Source: an uncultured Anaeromyxobacter sp. (GTDB lineage: Bacteria; Myxococcota; Myxococcia; Myxococcales; Anaeromyxobacteraceae). Taken from it: a stretch of DNA of 38,736 nt. A program made the position numbers and the translations under genes. Positions 1-33,737 of the stretch are shown one piece after another. The notes beneath the pieces are model-generated. The model made no database searches. It was not told the origin of the DNA and saw nothing but the letters and a program-made list of their open reading frames with translations. Position 1 is the stretch's first letter, and each line of letters starts with the position of its first letter. The stretch covers positions 1 to 38,736 of the forward strand of contig CAIOAK010000165.1 in assembly GCA_903855945.1 (NCBI GenBank), given 5' to 3'.

Positions 1-615
1 CACCGACCTCGTGGTGTAGTTGACCGGGATCCCGCCTCCGCCGCAGGCGATCACCACGGTCTCGAGGTGCAGCAGGTGCTTGATGGTGGCGAGCGGGAGC
101 ACCTTGAGCGGCTTGGGGGAGCAGACGGTCCGCCGGTACCCTCGACCGGAATCCTCCACCACCGTCCAGCCCTCCTCCCGCACGAACCGCTCCGCCTGCT
201 CCCGGGTGTAGAACGGGCCGATGGGCTTGGTGGGGTTGCGGAAGGCCGGATCTTCCGGATCCACCACCACCTGGGTGAGCAGCGTCGCGACGTCCCGCTG
301 CATCTTGTCCTCCTCGAGAACCGTCCTCATCGCGATCTCGAGCATGTGCCCGAGGAGCCCCTGGGACGAGGCCACCGCGACATCGAGCGGGGGGACTGGG
401 ATCTGGGCTCGGGCGTTCTCGAACTGGAGGAGAAGGTTCCCGACCTGCGGACCGTTCCCATGGACCAGCACGAGTTCGTATCCCTTGTGCAGGATGGCCA
501 GCATCTGCCGGCAGGCGGACTTCGCCTTCTCCATCTGCGACGGAAACGAGCCGTCGTCCCCTGCACCGAGGATGGCGTTGCCTCCGATTGCAACCACTGC
601 GATGGGTCTGGCCAT
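1..615 (-). CDS. arcC: carbamate kinase, C-terminus beyond window
   Basis: Reading the minus strand from the ATG at 615 gives an uninterrupted frame to the window edge (205 codons), so the C-terminal third is missing. The amino-acid kinase N-terminus is clear: AIGGNAI at residues 9-15 (phosphate-binding Gly-rich loop) and HGNGPQVG at 52-59, followed by the long alpha/beta insertion typical of carbamate kinase and a CGGGGIPV segment near the edge. The family interconverts carbamoyl phosphate + ADP and carbamate + ATP in the cytoplasm. It follows the DUF1116 gene by 12 bp on the same strand with a GGGG-type ribosome site, so it is the last visible gene of this operon. A DUF1116 protein beside carbamate kinase recalls the E. 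coli allFGHK (fdrA-ylbE-ylbF-ybcF) oxamate carbamoyltransferase locus, so the job here is probably ATP recovery from a carbamoyl compound. No ornithine carbamoyltransferase is seen in the window. Confidence 0.9.
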   Translation of the reverse strand, partial: MARPIAVVAIGGNAILGAGDDGSFPSQMEKAKSACRQMLAILHKGYELVLVHGNGPQVGNLLLQFENARAQIPVPPLDVAVASSQGLLGHMLEIAMRTVLEEDKMQRDVATLLTQVVVDPEDPAFRNPTKPIGPFYTREQAERFVREEGWTVVEDSGRGYRRTVCSPKPLKVLPLATIKHLLHLETVVIACGGGGIPVNYTTRSV

Positions 616-627
616 GGTCGCCCCGGG

Positions 628-2022
628 TCACGTGGGAAAGGCGAGGAGGGCGCGCCGGAACGCCTCGATCGGCGCCCGCGCGATTCCGGTGCCGATCTGC
701 CCGACTCCGGACGCCTTGTGCAGGACGCCGGTGTCGATGATGGGAGCCACCCCGGTGCGGACGACCTTCCGCACGTCGATGCCGATCGGTCCGGGCATGA
801 AGTCCATCGCCGAGGGCGAGAACTTCGGGTTGGAGGCTACGCAGATGGCGCGCATGGCCACCATCGCCTTCCGCGCATGGGCGACGGAGCCACCGACGAA
901 GGAGGAGATCCCGGGGGCCGCGCCGATCACGAGCCCCCCCAGACCCACGGTCTCGACGATGGCGCTGTCGCCGATGTCGCCTGCGGCGTCCGCCGCCGTG
1001 TAGCCGGAGTAGTAGATCGCCTCGTCCATGGGGGCGGTGGGGGCGACGAACCAGCGATCCGGTGCGCCGCCCACGCGAACCGCGAAGTCGACGCCGTTGC
1101 GGCTCATCGCCGTGACCACCGTGGACCCGGGAATGCCGTGCGCCGCATCCGCGGCCACCTTGCAGGCGGTGAGCGTCAGGCTGAGGAAGGAGTGGTTGTT
1201 GCCCGCCAGGAACCCGAGGACGTCCTGGATGGTCCTCTTGTCCGCGTCGGTCTGGAGGAGCAACGGGGTCAGCTTGCGCTGCAGCAGGAGCGTGCAGGCT
1301 GCGCTCCTCGCGTGCACCTCGTCGCCCATCTGGATTCCCTCGGCGACGATCTGGAAGATGTCGATGCCTTCTCCGGCGAATCGCAGCGCCTTCTTCAGGG
1401 TGGGGCCGAGGACGTCGCGCATCCACCGGAGCCGCTCGATGGTCGCCCGGTCGTAGGCACCCATCCAGATGACGTTGCCCTTGCCCTCGTTGAAGGTGGT
1501 CCAGCTCCGGTTCCCGAACGGCTGGTTCTCGGTGACGACGACCGGCATCGACGGGGAGATGACCCCGCACATGGCGCCCACGCTTCCCAGCGAGTAGTTG
1601 GGGCGCAGGAGGATCGCCTTCTCCTTCAGCTTTCGCTCCAGTTCCTCCCGCCCGGAGACCCAGCCCTCGAAGACCGCGGCTCCCTCCACCGCGCGCTGCT
1701 GGGGATCGCACATCTCCTCGAAGGCGATGGGCGGTCCGGAGTGGAGGATCGTGTCCGGTTCCAGCCCGGGGATGGCGTCGATCGCCCTCTCGACGTCCCG
1801 CCAGAGGGGACGGCTGTCCATCATGCGCTTCACGGTGGCCGCGTTGGCCTCATCGACCTCCGACCGTTGCAGCGCCGCGAGCCTGTCGATGAGCGCGGGG
1901 ACCCCGCCGGCCGGCGGCTTCCAGTCCACCTGGATCACCGGGACGTTCTGGGCCCGGAGATCCCGGGCGAACCCCTCGAGGCCCACGTTCACGACGGCGA
2001 CCCCCTGCGCGAGCCCCTTCAT
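628..2022 (-). CDS. DUF1116 protein, YlbE/AllG-like (oxamate carbamoyltransferase subunit family)
   Basis: 464 residues from the ATG at 2022, which overlaps the OsmC stop codon by 4 nt (ATGA). The first 40 residues (VVNVGLEGFARDLRAQ, then DWKPPAGG) form the small Rossmann-like segment found in FdrA/YlbE proteins. The rest is the DUF1116 core, recognised by GPPIAFEEM, LFEGW-like AVFEGWV, WMRDVLGPTLKKAL, GIQMGDE, VTAMSRNGVDFAVR, GDSAIVETVGLGG and GVGQIGTGIARAP. In E. coli the FdrA, YlbE and YlbF homologues form oxamate carbamoyltransferase and feed a carbamate kinase. Here carbamate kinase follows directly, but no FdrA or YlbF homologue is visible in the window; they may lie beyond the left edge. 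It is about 45 residues longer than E. coli YlbE because of the N-terminal segment. The substrate is unproven; related DUF1116 genes also occur in purine and urate degradation loci. Confidence 0.85.
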   Translation of the reverse strand: MKGLAQGVAVVNVGLEGFARDLRAQNVPVIQVDWKPPAGGVPALIDRLAALQRSEVDEANAATVKRMMDSRPLWRDVERAIDAIPGLEPDTILHSGPPIAFEEMCDPQQRAVEGAAVFEGWVSGREELERKLKEKAILLRPNYSLGSVGAMCGVISPSMPVVVTENQPFGNRSWTTFNEGKGNVIWMGAYDRATIERLRWMRDVLGPTLKKALRFAGEGIDIFQIVAEGIQMGDEVHARSAACTLLLQRKLTPLLLQTDADKRTIQDVLGFLAGNNHSFLSLTLTACKVAADAAHGIPGSTVVTAMSRNGVDFAVRVGGAPDRWFVAPTAPMDEAIYYSGYTAADAAGDIGDSAIVETVGLGGLVIGAAPGISSFVGGSVAHARKAMVAMRAICVASNPKFSPSAMDFMPGPIGIDVRKVVRTGVAPIIDTGVLHKASGVGQIGTGIARAPIEAFRRALLAFPT

Positions 2023-2414
2023 GGCAGCGCCTTCAGCTCGAAACACACTTCGACCGAGGCCGAGATGCTGTTCGTGATGAAGCAGATGTTCCTGGCCAGC
2101 AGGGCGATGCGCTCCAGCCGATCCGGATCGCAGCGTGCCTCGACCGTCACGAGGACCGAGGAGATGCGGGCCGAGGCGGGATCCTTGGAGCCGGTCACCT
2201 CGACCCGCAGCCCCTCGAGCACGGTTCGCGCCTTGGCGGCCACGTGCGCGAGCGACTGGCCGTAGCAGGACGCGATCGACCAGAGGAAGAGCTCGCTCGG
2301 CATCGGGCCCGTGTCGCCGCCCCCGTACTCGGGGCGCTGGTCGGCGAGCAGGATACGCTCGCCGGAGCGGAGCTCGAAGCGCATCCCGGAGACCTGGGTG
2401 GCCTCGACGATCAC
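2019..2414 (-). CDS. OsmC-like protein
   Basis: 131 residues from a GTG start at 2414 that overlaps the preceding acetyltransferase stop (GTGA). The stop overlaps the next start (ATGA), so translation of the three genes is probably coupled. The OsmC/Ohr fold is indicated by the N-terminal strand pattern, the GPMPSELFLWSIASC segment carrying the first conserved cysteine at the start of the central helix, and a second cysteine in LLARNICFI. This two-cysteine layout belongs to thiol peroxidase-type OsmC proteins that reduce organic hydroperoxides, but many operon-embedded OsmC paralogues have no known substrate. It sits between the Nit1C-like acetyltransferase and the DUF1116 gene, where canonical Nit1C clusters usually carry an AIR-synthase-like gene. 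A role in protecting a thiol or radical intermediate is only a guess. Confidence 0.8.
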   Translation of the reverse strand: MIVEATQVSGMRFELRSGERILLADQRPEYGGGDTGPMPSELFLWSIASCYGQSLAHVAAKARTVLEGLRVEVTGSKDPASARISSVLVTVEARCDPDRLERIALLARNICFITNSISASVEVCFELKALP

Positions 2415-2920
2415 GAGCGCGCCCTCCGGAGCGGGTACTCCATGAGCCGGTGGGCGCACCCCGCCAGCGGGAAGGGGCGCCCACGCGCCAGCCAGTCGAG
2501 CCGCTCGAAGAAGCGGACGTTCTGGACCTGGACGGTGGCGAAGAACCGGCGCACGTCCGGGCGAGCCTCCATCAGCTCGACGGCCCTCCGGACCAGGCTG
2601 GCGCCCAGCAGGCCGGTGCGGTGGTCGCGCGACACCGCCAGACGGCCACCGAACCAGACCCCCTTCCACTTGCGGTAGCAGCGGACGACCCCGACCACGC
2701 GCCCATCCACCGTGGCGATGATGGGGATGGCGTCGTGGTCCCGGAGGTCGCTGTCGTCCGCCTCGAAGAGCCGCTGCTCCTCGACGAACACCTCGCGCCG
2801 GAGCTGGTGATACGCCGCGAGCTCGGCGGGCGTCTCGGCGACCGTGAGGACCGGGTGCGCCGCGGGCCGCGGGCGGACGTCGGTCTCGGCGCTTGCGTGG
2901 AGATGAGGCTGCACGGTCAC
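2411..2920 (-). CDS. GNAT acetyltransferase, MSMEG_0567/Sll0786-type
   Basis: 169 residues from a GTG at 2920 that overlaps the radical SAM stop codon (GTGA). The longer in-frame start at 3139 would run inside the radical SAM gene and is rejected. The GNAT fold is visible: YHQLRREVFVEEQ (helix 1), GRVVGVVRCYR (beta 4), the acetyl-CoA loop region GGRLAVSRDHRTGLLGASLV, and VQVQNVRFFERLDW, a characteristic C-terminal signature. The C-terminus GCAHRLMEYPL matches the nitrogen-starvation N-acetyltransferase family that accompanies the MSMEG_0568-type radical SAM enzyme in Nit1C clusters. The acceptor substrate of this family is unknown to me. The order radical SAM then GNAT is the same as sll0785-sll0786 in Synechocystis. 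Confidence 0.85.
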   Translation of the reverse strand: MTVQPHLHASAETDVRPRPAAHPVLTVAETPAELAAYHQLRREVFVEEQRLFEADDSDLRDHDAIPIIATVDGRVVGVVRCYRKWKGVWFGGRLAVSRDHRTGLLGASLVRRAVELMEARPDVRRFFATVQVQNVRFFERLDWLARGRPFPLAGCAHRLMEYPLRRARS

Positions 2921-3996
2921 TCCCGGAGCTGCAGAAGCGAGCAGGCCCGGCACTTCACGCATCCTGCGCTGCTGTCGCGTGAGCTCAGGCGGGCGCGGGC
3001 GAGCATGTCCCCGACGGCGTCGTAGACCCGGCCGACGTATTCCAGGCTGGGGGGCTCGGCCTTCGCGAGCATGGTCCCGAGCATCGGCCGGAGTGGGACG
3101 ACGAACGGGTAGACACCGAGGGAGATCGCCCTGTGACACCCGTCGAGCGTGAGCCCTTCGTCCTCGCCGAGACCCAGGATGACGTAGGTGCTCACCCTTC
3201 CCCGCCCCATCACCCGCACGGCGGCATGGAATGCGGCGAAGTACTGCTCGATGTCGATGCTGGCCTTTCCGGGCGTGACGCGGGCCCGGACCGCAGGGTC
3301 GAAGCTCTCGATGTGCAGGCCGATGTCATCGACGCCGAGGTCCTTCAGCGCGGCGAAGACAGAGTCGTCGGAAGGCGGCTCGAACTGCACCTGCACGGGC
3401 AGCCCGGTGGTCCGCTTGATGGCCGCGGCGCACTCGCCCAGGTAGAGCGCGCCCCGGTCCGGGCGATCGACCGTCCCGGACGTCAGCGTGACGTGGGTGA
3501 CGCCGTCGAGCATCTTCGCGGCCCGGGCCACCTCGGCGAGCTGGGCGGGGGTCTTGGTATGGACGGTGGCCCCGCTGGCCAGGGAGACCCCGATGGCGCA
3601 GAAGCGGCAGCGCGTGGCCGGATCGTCGTAGCGGTGGCACTCCTGGACCACCGTCGTGGCCAGGCAGTCGGAGCCGTGGAGCCGGGCGAGCTTCTCGTAG
3701 GAGGTCCCGTCGGCCGTCTGGAGGTCGTAGAACTGGGGGCGGGGTACGGCCACCAGTTGCCCGATCCGCTCCCCCTGCTTCTCGAGTGTGGAACCGTCAC
3801 AGCCGGAGACGATCTCGAACGGCGACCCGCGTGCGGGCCGGTTCCGGGTGGGGATCATGAGGGTGTGCGCCCCCATGCGATAGGCGCGATCGTCGGACGG
3901 GCCCGCGCCCCCCCGCCTCGCCTCCTCGCTCCCGCTCCGCGTCCGCGCGCCCTGGCACTGGAGCGCGACGAGATCCCTCAACATGTCGCCCGCCAT
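2917..3996 (-). CDS. radical SAM enzyme, MSMEG_0568/Sll0785-type
   Basis: 359 residues. The ATG at 3996 is chosen because AAGGG at 4006-4010 is 9 nt upstream; the ATG at 4005 would touch that site. Cys120, Cys130 and Cys133 (segment ECHRYDDPATRCRFCAIG) give a CX9CX2C cluster motif instead of the usual CX3CX2C. The barrel follows (HVTLTSGTVDRPDRG, QVQFEPP, DDIGLHIESFD, YVILGLGEDEG), resembling biotin-synthase-like radical SAM proteins. The C-terminus ends in CX2CX2C (Cys346, 349, 352), possibly an auxiliary iron-sulfur or metal site. This family is the hallmark of the Nit1C cluster, linked in Pseudomonas and cyanobacteria to growth on poor nitrogen sources including cyanide; its reaction is not established to my knowledge. 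About 108 bp separate it from the amidohydrolase upstream, the largest gap in the operon. Confidence 0.9.
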   Translation of the reverse strand: MAGDMLRDLVALQCQGARTRSGSEEARRGGAGPSDDRAYRMGAHTLMIPTRNRPARGSPFEIVSGCDGSTLEKQGERIGQLVAVPRPQFYDLQTADGTSYEKLARLHGSDCLATTVVQECHRYDDPATRCRFCAIGVSLASGATVHTKTPAQLAEVARAAKMLDGVTHVTLTSGTVDRPDRGALYLGECAAAIKRTTGLPVQVQFEPPSDDSVFAALKDLGVDDIGLHIESFDPAVRARVTPGKASIDIEQYFAAFHAAVRVMGRGRVSTYVILGLGEDEGLTLDGCHRAISLGVYPFVVPLRPMLGTMLAKAEPPSLEYVGRVYDAVGDMLARARLSSRDSSAGCVKCRACSLLQLRE

Positions 3997-4104
3997 GGAG
4001 CACATCCCTTCGGATTCACCGCCCCGTCCCGCCGGGCCGGGGCCAGGCGAGACGGGAACGGAGGGTTGATCAGGCCAGGATTCGCGTGACCTTCCTGCAG
4101 CGCG

Positions 4105-4974
4105 TCATGTTCCGTAGAGCTTCTCGGCGTTGCCCCAGAAGATCTTGTCCTTCAGCTCCTCGGAGATGTCCTCGCCCTCGATCTTGTAGTACTCGCCCCA
4201 GAAGTCGCTCCAGGGCTCGTCGGAGCTGAACATCACGCGGTCGTCGCCGTACCCGTGCTTCTCGATCTCCTCCAGCAGGTACCGGGCGCAGAATCCGACC
4301 GCCCACGAGGTGTCCGTGTAGACCTGGTAGCCCTCGTGGATCAGCTTGAAGAACTCGGGGATGAACTTGATGTGTCCCGAGACGCCTCCGCCGCAGTGCA
4401 CGGCGTGCACCTTGACCCGCTTTCCGTAGGCGCGGATGAACTTGATGCAGTTCCCGATGTCCGAACCCCCGCCCGGGCTGGTGTGGAGATGGAAGACGTG
4501 CCCGTGCTTCTCGGCCACGCCGATGATCCACTCCCACATCTCCCGGGTCTCGGGGTCCCACTCCTCCGGGTTCCAGGTCCCGCCGAGCAGGCAGGTGGCC
4601 TTCAGAACCTTGATGCCCGGCTCGCCGGCGTGCGCCAGCGAGGCCTCGTTCTCGGCCTTCATCTTGAGCATCGGCGAGAACCAGATGCCGCCCAGGATCC
4701 GCCGGTCGGGATCGCCCGCGGCCTCCAGGACGACCTTGTTCAGCCCGAACGGCTGGGTCGGGATCGGCACGCCGTAGTTCGACATCACGATCGCCCGATC
4801 GACGCCGAGGCGATCCATGACGGAGATCTTCGCGCCGCGGTCGTCATCGGTGAACACGGTCGGGTTCACCGGCTCGGGGAGGCCGTAGTACTTGAACCCC
4901 TCCATGAACCCGATGTGATTGTGGACGTCGAACACCTTGCGGTTCGTCTTCAGCCCCTTCTTGAAGCGCTGCAT
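4105..4974 (-). CDS. amidohydrolase-2 family metal-dependent hydrolase
   Basis: 289 residues from the ATG at 4974 with a GGGGGA ribosome site about 10 nt upstream. It is a TIM-barrel amidohydrolase (PF04909-like): HxH pair at His18/His20 in DVHNH, later metal/catalytic histidines in HVFHLHTSPGG and KVHAVHCGGG, and the catalytic Asp in MFSSDEPW near the C-terminus, followed by the usual FWGNAEKLYG ending. Such enzymes hydrolyse amides or decarboxylate small acids. It lies between a Sll0783-like gene and the radical SAM gene, exactly where the nitrilase sits in canonical Nit1C clusters. It may therefore replace nitrilase in delivering ammonia or a carboxylate from a C-N compound; that role is inferred from position only. 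The spacing to the upstream DsrE-like gene is 30 bp, consistent with co-transcription. Confidence 0.85.
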   Translation of the reverse strand: MQRFKKGLKTNRKVFDVHNHIGFMEGFKYYGLPEPVNPTVFTDDDRGAKISVMDRLGVDRAIVMSNYGVPIPTQPFGLNKVVLEAAGDPDRRILGGIWFSPMLKMKAENEASLAHAGEPGIKVLKATCLLGGTWNPEEWDPETREMWEWIIGVAEKHGHVFHLHTSPGGGSDIGNCIKFIRAYGKRVKVHAVHCGGGVSGHIKFIPEFFKLIHEGYQVYTDTSWAVGFCARYLLEEIEKHGYGDDRVMFSSDEPWSDFWGEYYKIEGEDISEELKDKIFWGNAEKLYGT

Positions 4975-5005
4975 GCGGGCATTCCCCCTGGTCGGGCGAT
5001 GAGGG

Positions 5006-5494
5006 CTAGACCGTCCACGTCGAGAGGATGAGGGCTCCGGAGCGCTGGTGGTCGATGAGGACGTCCAGGACGTCGAGCTGGTGGATGAGCCGTACGCCGT
5101 CGATCAGGTCCGACTCGCGCATGCCGTAGAGCGCCGCCATCGCGAACCGGCAGGCGAGGACCTTCCCGCCTTCCTTGAGGATCGTCTTGATCTGGTTGTT
5201 CATCGAGAGGTTGCCGGGGAAGGCCTCGTCCCCGACCTTGGGGAAGCCGCGGGTGGCGGAGGCCATCAGGACGCCGGGGCCGTAGAGCAGCAGCGTGGTG
5301 TCGTAGCCCTTCCGGATCAGCCGGGTCGTGGTGAGCAGGTTGACGAGGCCTACCGAGCCCTCAAACGGGACGGTGTGCATCTGGACGAGCGCGCGGTCGC
5401 CGGGCCTCGCCTTGAAGTCCTCGAAGAGCTTCGGGACGGACAGGTTGACGATCTCATCTCCGACTTGCGGCTTGGGAATCTGAACGACGCTCAT
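5006..5494 (-). CDS. DsrE-fold nitrogen-starvation protein, MSMEG_0572/Sll0783-type
   Basis: 162 residues from the ATG at 5494, preceded by AAAGGAA 6 nt away. The sequence carries the family signatures EGSVGLVNLLTTTRL, LYGPGVLMASATRGFP, VGDEAFPGNLSMNNQ and CRFAMAALYGMRE. Cys115 aligns with the reactive cysteine position of DsrE-like proteins. Homologues are the first gene of the Nit1C cluster (sll0783 in Synechocystis, MSMEG_0572 in mycobacteria), induced by nitrogen starvation; sll0783 mutation affects polyhydroxybutyrate accumulation. The molecular function is unknown. It is the first gene of the operon here, and its start region contains an inverted repeat overlapping the ribosome site, so expression of the whole operon could be set at this point. 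Confidence 0.88.
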   Translation of the reverse strand: MSVVQIPKPQVGDEIVNLSVPKLFEDFKARPGDRALVQMHTVPFEGSVGLVNLLTTTRLIRKGYDTTLLLYGPGVLMASATRGFPKVGDEAFPGNLSMNNQIKTILKEGGKVLACRFAMAALYGMRESDLIDGVRLIHQLDVLDVLIDHQRSGALILSTWTV

Positions 5495-7072: not shown

Positions 7073-7119
7073 ATCCGCGAGAGATCCTTCCGAAAACCCG
7101 TTCGAGGAGCGTGGTGGCG

Positions 7120-7350
7120 ATGATCCAGCCTGTCCTGTCAGACGATGCTTGGGACGCGGGCGACATGGGCTGCGGCGAGCTGGTATTCCTGCTCTCCCAG
7201 CGCATGCGCGCTCTCGGCCCCGGCAAGGTGCTGGAGCTCACCGCCACCGACCTCGGCGCGCCCCACGACATCCCGGCCTGGTGCCGGCTGACGGAGCACG
7301 CGCTCCTCGACGCATCTCCACCCCGCTACCTCATTCGATCCAGGGAGTGA
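7120..7350 (+). CDS. TusA-like sulfur-carrier protein
   Basis: 76 residues from the ATG at 7120, chosen over the GTGs at 7111 and 7114 because GAGGAG at 7104-7109 is then 10 nt upstream. The TusA/SirA fold is indicated by WDAGDMGCGELV, GKVLELTATDLGAPHDIPAW and the C-terminal RYLIRSRE. The carrier cysteine is retained (Cys18), but the proline of the usual Cys-Pro motif is replaced by Gly. TusA proteins carry persulfide sulfur on this cysteine and pass it to DsrE-type partners or sulfur-using enzymes. The DsrE-like gene starts 4 bp after this stop and a second TusA domain lies in the third gene, so the three products probably act as one relay. The physiological sulfur acceptor is unknown. Confidence 0.8.
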   Translation: MIQPVLSDDAWDAGDMGCGELVFLLSQRMRALGPGKVLELTATDLGAPHDIPAWCRLTEHALLDASPPRYLIRSRE

Positions 7351-7354
7351 CGAC

Positions 7355-7717
7355 ATGGCTGGAAAGCTCTGTGTCTCGATCACGAACGCGAAGAACGATG
7401 CCGACCGCGCCACGGTGGGCTTCGTCGTGGCGAACGCCGCCGTCGGGTCCGCGCAGGAGACGATGGTGTTCCTCTCCACCGAGGCCGTTCGCCTCGCAGT
7501 GAAGGGATACGCCGACGACATCCACGAGGAGGGATTCGCCCCGCTCCGGGACCTCCTCGCCAACTTCGTGAAGGGCGGGGGCAAGATCTTCGTCTGCTCC
7601 CCCTGCTTCAAGAAGAGGGGGCTCGACGAGAAGGCTCTGGTGGAGGGCGCGACCATCGTCGGCGGGGCCAAGGTGGTGGAATTCCTGGCCTCCGGCGCTC
7701 CCTGCATCTCCTACTAG
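7355..7717 (+). CDS. DsrE-family sulfur-relay protein
   Basis: 120 residues, with a GGGAG ribosome site inside the end of the preceding gene. The DsrE/DsrF-like fold is shown by the N-terminal strand CVSITNAKNDADR, FVVANAAVGSAQETMVFLST, the helix VRLAVKGYADD, and KIFVCSPCFKKRGLDE, which carries a vicinal CX2C pair (Cys81, Cys84) where the persulfide-binding cysteine of this family lies. Such proteins accept sulfur from TusA-type carriers. It sits between a TusA-like gene and a TusA-MetE fusion gene with 4 and 10 bp spacing, forming a clear operon. It differs from the Sll0783-like DsrE-fold protein at 5006-5494, which lacks the CX2C pair. Confidence 0.85.
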   Translation: MAGKLCVSITNAKNDADRATVGFVVANAAVGSAQETMVFLSTEAVRLAVKGYADDIHEEGFAPLRDLLANFVKGGGKIFVCSPCFKKRGLDEKALVEGATIVGGAKVVEFLASGAPCISY

Positions 7718-7727
7718 GGAAACTCCC

Positions 7728-9263
7728 GTGGCCTCCGAGAACATCACGGTCCCTCCGCCATCGGCCAGCTTCGACGGCGGGGCTCTCGACTGCGGGAGTG
7801 GCCTGCTCCTGCTCATCCGGCAGCACATCGACCCTCTCCGCGAGGGGCAGATCCTGGAGATCGCCTCGTCCGAGGCATCGGTGTGCGAGGACCTTCCAGC
7901 CTGGTGCCGGATGACCGGCAACGAGCTGGTCTCGGAGGACCGCGGGGAGGGGCGCTACCGGTTCCTGGTCGCGAAGGGGAGGTTCATCCCCACGCAGGTG
8001 TCCTCCGCACCGGAGACGTCTTCACGCCCCCGCATGCCCGGGCGGCAGATCCTGCCGGTCCAGATCCCGGGCTCACTCCCCTCCCCGGCTCCCGTGCCGT
8101 CCATCCCTCCGCTCTCGGTGATGGGAGTCGGGAGCTGGCCCCGTCCTCGCTGGATGATCCAGGCGCTTCACGAGTACCTGGACGGGCGCCTGCCCGAGGC
8201 CGACTTCCAGGCCACGGCGGACGACGCGGTACGGCTGGTGCTCGACGCGCAGGTGGCGGCGGGAGTGGACGTCGTCACCGACGGGGAGCAGCGTCGAGAC
8301 AACTACGCGAGCTTCGTCGCCTCCCGGCTCGACAACTGCCAGCTCGTGCCCATCACGGATCTCATGCCCTACGTGGAGGACCCGGAGGAGTTCGAGCGCG
8401 AGCTCCGGGCCCTCGACGTCCCGGCCGGGAAGGTCCGTCATCCCGCCGTGCTCGGGCCCCTCTCCCGGTCACGCCCCATCGCGGTCCACGAGCTCGACTT
8501 CGCGAGACGGCATACTTCCCTACCCGTGAAGATTGCCCTCCCCGGTCCGTACCTGCTCACCCGGACCATGTGGATGGAGTGCGTCTCGGACATGGCCTAC
8601 GCCGACCGGGAGGCCCTGGCCGAGGACGTCGTGCGCGTCCTCCGCGAGGAGATCCACTTCCTGCTCGCCGCCGGTGCGGCGCTGGTCCAGCTCGACGAGC
8701 CGGTGCTCTCGGAGGTGGTTTTCGGCGGTGCCGTGGCCGGGAACCGCTCGTTCATGTGCGGCGCACTCGGGGCGCGGAGGGACACCCCCGAGGAACTGGC
8801 CTTCGCCGAGGACCTGCTCCTGCGCGTCACGCGCGGCCTACCGGCGGAGCGGCTCGCGATGCACGTGTGCCGGGGCAACTGGACGCCCGACGAGACCGTC
8901 GCGCTCCGCGGGGACTACCGACCGCTCCTGGGCCTGCTGGCCCGCGCGCCGGTCGGAACGCTGTTCCTGGAGATGGCCACCCCGCGAGCGGGAGAGATGG
9001 AGGTCCTCGCCGAGCTCCCCCGCGAGAAGCGCATCGGGGTCGGGGTCGTGAACCAGAAGATCCCGGAGGTCGAGCCCCTCGACGTCGTGCTGGCCCGGGC
9101 GCAGCGCGCCGTGGAGCTCTTCGGGCCGGAGCGTGTGCTCCTCAACCCGGACTGCGGCTTCGCCACCTTCGCCGACAACCCCGTGGCCTCCGCGGAGATC
9201 GCCCGGGGCAAGCTGGCCGTCGCCGTGGAGGCATCGAGGATCCTGCGCGCGCGTCACGGGTGA
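7728..9263 (+). CDS. TusA-like domain fused to MetE-like (core methionine synthase family) methyltransferase
   Basis: 511 residues from a GTG at 7728, with AGGGA 7 nt upstream. Residues about 10-90 are a second TusA-like domain (DGGALDCGSGL with Cys22, ILEIASSEASVCEDLPAWCR, YRFLVAKGRF), again lacking the Cys-Pro proline. After a Pro/Ser-rich linker, residues about 125-505 form a cobalamin-independent methionine synthase C-terminal-type barrel: VMGVGSWPRP, GVDVVTDGEQRRDNY, KIALPGPYLLTRTMW, LVQLDEPVLS. The zinc ligands of MetE are all present: His379 and Cys381 (MHVCRGNW), Glu415 and Cys476 (NPDCGFATF). This family moves a methyl group to a zinc-bound thiol. The MetE N-terminal half is absent, as in 'core-MetE' proteins that take the methyl group from a corrinoid. 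Fusion to a sulfur carrier suggests the thiol or persulfide acceptor is delivered in cis. The exact reaction is unknown. Confidence 0.85.
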   Translation: MASENITVPPPSASFDGGALDCGSGLLLLIRQHIDPLREGQILEIASSEASVCEDLPAWCRMTGNELVSEDRGEGRYRFLVAKGRFIPTQVSSAPETSSRPRMPGRQILPVQIPGSLPSPAPVPSIPPLSVMGVGSWPRPRWMIQALHEYLDGRLPEADFQATADDAVRLVLDAQVAAGVDVVTDGEQRRDNYASFVASRLDNCQLVPITDLMPYVEDPEEFERELRALDVPAGKVRHPAVLGPLSRSRPIAVHELDFARRHTSLPVKIALPGPYLLTRTMWMECVSDMAYADREALAEDVVRVLREEIHFLLAAGAALVQLDEPVLSEVVFGGAVAGNRSFMCGALGARRDTPEELAFAEDLLLRVTRGLPAERLAMHVCRGNWTPDETVALRGDYRPLLGLLARAPVGTLFLEMATPRAGEMEVLAELPREKRIGVGVVNQKIPEVEPLDVVLARAQRAVELFGPERVLLNPDCGFATFADNPVASAEIARGKLAVAVEASRILRARHG

Positions 9264-33664: not shown

Positions 33665-33737
33665 GAGGCGCTAGCTCAATTGGTAGAGCATCGGCCTTTT
33701 AAGCCGGTGGTTCCGGGTTCGATCCCCGGGCGCCTCA
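33665..33737 (+). tRNA. tRNA-Lys (anticodon TTT)
   Basis: 73 nt that fold as a complete cloverleaf: acceptor GAGGCGC/GCGCCTC, D-stem GCTC/GAGC, anticodon stem TCGGC/GCCGG with loop CTTTTAA (anticodon TTT), variable TGGTT, T-stem CCGGG/CCCGG with loop TTCGATC, discriminator A. The CCA end is not encoded. It stands alone, next to a recombinase relic on its 5' side. Confidence 0.95.

Follow-up and report, generated by a model that had tools for sequence, protein, structure and literature searches.

The 38,736 nucleotide stretch of uncultured Anaeromyxobacter DNA analysed here (the window) contains a three-gene operon encoding a stand-alone TusA-like carrier, a DsrE-family protein and a fusion of a TusA domain to a MetE-like zinc barrel. 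Judged from sequence comparisons, the operon is very probably a selenium-supply module acting upstream of SelD. The full explanation, in which selenium supply upstream of SelD is combined with the demethylation steps set out below, is favoured with moderate confidence. This conserved three-gene module is apparently undescribed. Its genes and key residues are as follows.

7111..7350, + strand: stand-alone TusA-like carrier (Pfam PF01206, 1.1e-7, over the cut-off)
7355..7717, + strand: DsrE-family protein, 120 aa (Pfam PF02635, 3.2e-13, over the cut-off)
7728..9263, + strand: TusA::MetE-like fusion, 511 aa, GTG start (Pfam and AF2 model)
7791..7793, + strand: Cys22, carrier Cys in the TusA part of the fusion (44/44 fusions)
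8757..8759, + strand: Cys344 in the R-[ST]-F-M-C insert (53/53 relatives)
8862..8870, + strand: Zn ligands H379 and C381 (HVC), invariant
8970..8972, + strand: Zn ligand E415, invariant
9153..9155, + strand: Zn ligand C476, invariant

All three genes lie on the same strand with intergenic gaps of 4 and 10 bp, an arrangement typical of a single transcript. The stand-alone TusA has 79 aa when read from the GTG at 7111, the ATG at 7120 being an equally likely start; its catalytic Cys is found in 'MGCGEL' and a second Cys in 'PAWC'. The active-site CxxC of the DsrE protein is C81-S-P-C84. The fusion consists of a TusA domain (residues ~11-84), a linker (~85-126) and the Zn barrel (~127-511), with Pfam matches over the cut-off for both TusA (residues 27-83, 1.8e-8) and Meth_synt_2 (3e-26). 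A preliminary description had read the operon as two TusA domains, a CxxC DsrE protein and a four-ligand MetE barrel fused to one of the TusA domains, and the Pfam matches and residues confirm this layout. The TusA assignment stood as to family and catalytic Cys and not as to motif, which is CGxG or CGEL here in place of the canonical CPxP. TusA and DsrE proteins are carriers of chalcogen atoms on Cys. The carrier Cys was kept in all 44 fusions, the first and second Cys of the stand-alone TusA in 44/44 and 43/44, and both Cys of the DsrE CxxC in 65/65 relatives. Sec codons were also looked for inside the operon genes, and none was convincing.

The Zn ligands H379, C381, E415 and C476 were invariant across all aligned barrels, and so were the homocysteine-binding residues S136, E187 and D323 in the 28 barrels tested; both sets follow published definitions, the homocysteine residues being Ser433, Glu484 and Asp599 in E. 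coli numbering (PMC7857596). These conserved residues are consistent with the idea, put forward earlier from the sequence, of a carrier-coupled thiol methyltransferase. An AF2 model of the fusion (pLDDT 87) had MetE and MesD as its nearest folds. The insert R-[ST]-F-M-C, which follows the strand bearing D323, is specific to the family; it was absent from the homologs compared, namely MesD, two annotated 'methionine synthase II', two archaeal and four other myxobacterial proteins. Its loop is poorly ordered or flexible in the model, with low pLDDT at 337-341, and from the barrel topology C344 would lie at the mouth of the active site. In the barrel tree, in which long outgroup branches leave the exact root unsure, the 28 FMC barrels formed one group (88/95) and the TusA fusions a subclade (100/99). 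On this comparison, the fusion is a member of the MetE superfamily in a separate clade. NCBIfam methionine synthase models matched it below threshold only (best PRK04326, 165 bits versus a cut-off of 406), which leaves it outside every curated family; literature searches of open-access papers for TusA with methionine synthase and DsrE or OsmC returned neither the fusion nor a selenium link. That no system with this fusion had been described was already supposed in the preliminary description; the fusion proved to be widespread rather than unique.

A scan of GTDB genomes yielded 80 loci, and the trio is kept at about 70 loci across many phyla, which excludes chance association. The three clusters that recurred on the same strand were MetE (81 loci), DsrE (71) and TusA (69). 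Per-locus gene orders revealed the arrangement TusA-DsrE-(TusA::MetE) in Anaeromyxobacter, other Myxococcota, Betaproteobacteria, Alphaproteobacteria, Planctomycetota, Rokubacteria, Chloroflexota, Actinomycetota and Obscuribacter. The operons of Betaproteobacteria and Rokubacteria carry an added PhnD-PhnE-PhnC transporter, which the window's own operon lacks; the inserted PhnD matches HtxB, a hypophosphite/phosphite substrate-binding protein (SBP), with E ~1e-81. The PhnD at locus L018 is of another type and its adjacency was not counted. Two extra operon proteins of no known family were found in Paracoccus, Aquabacter and others. In Poribacteria, Nitrospinota and some Planctomycetota, TusA is fused to an OsmC domain and the barrel is separate; in Armatimonadota and anaerobic cocci, a TusA-less barrel is accompanied by an OsmC protein, a cytosolic substrate-binding-like protein and an acyl-CoA dehydrogenase.

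Several details of these variants were recorded in passing. Two Anaeromyxobacter MAGs each have two copies of the operon (L015/L017 and L016/L018). The TusA-OsmC fusions at L085 (6248-6988), L086, L087 and L088 adjoin a stand-alone MetE barrel, and their OsmC domain is closest to the NCBIfam OsmC-related (seleno)protein model. At L089, L093 and L094, an acyl-CoA dehydrogenase is clustered with a cytosolic SBP-like protein of the Rv1680 family, a MetE barrel with the FMC motif and OsmC; this set resembles M. tuberculosis Rv1679-Rv1681, and the NCBIfam model for the radical SAM protein Rv1681 matches the operon's TusA domains weakly. Two proteins with no Pfam match occur in or next to the operon at L054 (5714-7910), L070 (5879-7944), L026, L048 and L087: a membrane protein of ~170 aa with a conserved Cys, and a secreted, C-terminally anchored protein of ~530 aa with the motif CPTGHNFGF, the latter found among plasmids only in the three records that have the fusion. 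X537, inserted in some operons, gave a poor fold model (pLDDT 43).

The first sign of selenium came from Paracoccus, where selA lies directly downstream of the operon in three cases and selB upstream. Further physical linkage was found in Chloroflexota (selB within ~7 kb of the operon at five loci), at L079 (selD within 3 kb) and in a Burkholderiales MAG (one or more of selA, selB and selD nearby). The Corynebacterium locus L119 has, within 11 kb, selB-selA-selD, a Sec-formate dehydrogenase with TGA at its NQARI-U-H site, and then TusA-DsrE-(TusA::MetE). At L092, a TusA-less sister barrel lies amid glycine/sarcosine reductase genes, with TGA in both GrdA and GrdB. The operon has no adjacent sel genes in the window or in most carriers; the host itself is a selenoprotein maker, its SelD having an in-frame TGA (Sec) at the catalytic position. 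Readings based on thiosulfate, arsenic, mercury or organosulfur compounds, suggested by PhnD-like and MerT-like neighbours, were dropped once the sel linkage appeared.

Co-occurrence pointed the same way. Of 48 carrier genomes, 46 had SelD and 44 had SelA, against a published bacterial background of 38.3% for SelD and 24.7% for Sec decoding, with which SelA was compared (PMC5322559); as the carriers are not independent, a binomial comparison with this background overstates the case. In all, three carrier genomes lack a SelD match, and these look like incomplete drafts or MAGs. SelU was found in 19 of the 48 carriers, among them three of the four that lack SelA, and the shared step is therefore SelD: since the module is common to Sec users and to users of 2-selenouridine only, it would act at or before SelD. 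Among 181 Corynebacterium genomes, 55 were SelD-positive, and all seven carriers were among these 55 (P = 1.8e-4). No enrichment was seen in Burkholderiales (carriers 9/11, all genomes 215/300, P = 0.35), a control that is uninformative because SelD already stands at 72% there. YedF exceeded the cut-off in just 4 of the 48 carriers, three of them TusA-less variants. A Planctomycetota carrier encodes a stand-alone DsrE domain resembling the C-terminal part of YedF, with an in-frame TGA, possibly a selenoprotein (G223:C8:58804-59136).

The linkage to selA, selB, selD and Sec-formate dehydrogenase argues against taking the fusion for a core-MetE-type methionine synthase with an unknown methyl donor, with TusA and DsrE handling sulfur and the selenium tie a mere correlation of habitat. 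Such an enzyme is compatible with the intact Zn and homocysteine residues and with a fold nearest MetE and MesD, and the idea is kept alive because a few carriers (Dermabacter, Helcobacillus and Enteractinococcus) matched neither MetH nor full-length MetE. However, MetH and/or MetE is already present in most carriers, and the host has MetH (and no full-length MetE); neither a corrinoid gene nor MesX (DUF1852), which does occur beside true MesD, was seen adjoining the operon or among its conserved neighbours. We consider this explanation improbable. A methionine or methanethiol purpose, proposed at the outset, therefore lost ground on the same MetH/MetE distribution, the comparative signal being selenium and not sulfur; nor did the corrinoid and homocysteine-synthesis neighbours then suggested recur among those neighbours that carried an annotation.

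For the preferred reading, selenium supply upstream of SelD, the following route can be proposed. Methylated selenium (methylselenol, methylseleninate or dimethyl diselenide) would enter the cell, in some lineages through the operon-encoded HtxB-like ABC transporter, whose SBP could alternatively bring in phosphorus compounds or selenite. The CH3-Se group would then form a selenenyl sulfide on a Cys, either Cys22 or the C344 in the loop of the barrel. Since the barrel keeps both Zn and homocysteine binding, a Zn-bound homocysteine thiolate could attack the methyl group, giving methionine and Cys-S-Se-, and TusA and DsrE would hand the selenium on to SelD, for use in selenocysteine and/or 2-selenouridine. 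That Zn-bound homocysteine takes the methyl from a methylseleno group on a carrier, so that Cys-S-Se- remains to be relayed, is quite possible, if somewhat short of probable; the methyl donor and the role of C344 are points that we only infer. Precedent comes from Methanococcus, which uses methylseleninate, dimethyl selenide and dimethyl diselenide; upon selenium starvation it induces a locus that resembles SdmABC and is tied to the use of methylselenides, and transcripts of tusAD and of a PhnU-like (phosphonate-type) transporter go up (PMC11097638).

The selenium link itself, through SelD/SelA co-occurrence and the L119 linkage, also fits a module devoid of methyl chemistry, in which selenite or a similar oxyanion is imported, TusA and DsrE carry reduced selenium, and the Zn/Cys barrel, as a metal-thiol site, binds or releases selenide. 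The HtxB-like oxyanion SBP and the extra C344 near the barrel mouth agree with such a scheme, and so does a published report that thioredoxin reduces selenite and thereby feeds the synthesis of selenoproteins (PMC8538045). The invariance of the homocysteine residues in 28/28 barrels would be odd, though, if homocysteine or methionine were no substrate, and we regard the scheme as rather unlikely. Run in reverse, these carriers and the Zn-thiol chemistry could also serve detoxification, with the barrel methylating the selenide on a carrier so that it becomes volatile. This is highly improbable, since the module tracks selenium users and adjoins biosynthetic sel genes, and the barrel has no recognisable methyl-donor site.

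Among known systems, YedF (TIGR03527, a TusA-DsrE fusion, equal to FdhU) likewise combines TusA and DsrE and is linked to selenium; it is associated with SelD and its function is unresolved (PMC5322559). Here, in contrast, TusA and DsrE are separate, CPxP is missing and a MetE barrel is added. YedF itself was rejected as the identity of these genes, there being no TIGR03527 match among the window proteins and none in G000. SdmABC of Methanococcus is likewise a methyltransfer system and mobilises selenium from methylselenides (PMC11097638), a function which for the present operon we infer. SdmABC is corrinoid-dependent and has a coenzyme M methyltransferase, whereas the operon is bacterial and its enzyme MetE-type, with a homocysteine pocket and a fused TusA; no corrinoid partner was recognised among the operon's recurrent neighbours, whose annotation is partial. 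The core methionine synthases MesA-D (MesD structure 3RPD) share the barrel, the Zn ligands and the homocysteine residues (PMC7857596), but the fusion forms a separate clade with the C344 insert and a TusA domain, has no MesX, and occurs in carriers that mostly have a methionine synthase. With TusA of the TusA-BCD-E relay the operon has the carrier fold and catalytic Cys in common, and it differs by its CGx motif, the enzyme fusion and the genomic tie to selenium genes. The most far-reaching proposal, somewhat less likely than not, is a corrinoid-independent bacterial demethylase, acting on methylated selenium held on the fused carrier and yielding methionine and a protein-bound perselenide for relay to SelD.

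According to a 2026 review, prokaryotes have no known transport system that is specific for selenium and of high affinity, nor is it settled which form of selenium SelD receives in vivo and from which donor (PMC13188914). The operon is a concrete and widespread candidate for this donor step, with its own transporter in some lineages. If the proposal is true, a set of proteins now annotated as methionine synthase would become selenium enzymes, and a dedicated route of selenium scavenging and delivery exists across many phyla.

Elsewhere in the window, positions 1-5494 (- strand) hold a Nit1C-like/nitrogen-starvation set (an MSMEG_0572-like DsrE relative, an amidohydrolase, an MSMEG_0568 radical SAM protein, an MSMEG_0567 GNAT protein and an OsmC protein) that continues into an AllG/FdrA-like gene and a carbamate kinase; genes of the cyanide/nitrile type are thus mixed, unusually, with genes of the oxamate type. 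The Nit1C-like genes do not recur beside the TusA-MetE operon in relatives and were rejected as part of the system. One tRNA gene, the sole Rfam match in the window, was found at 33665-33737 (+ strand).
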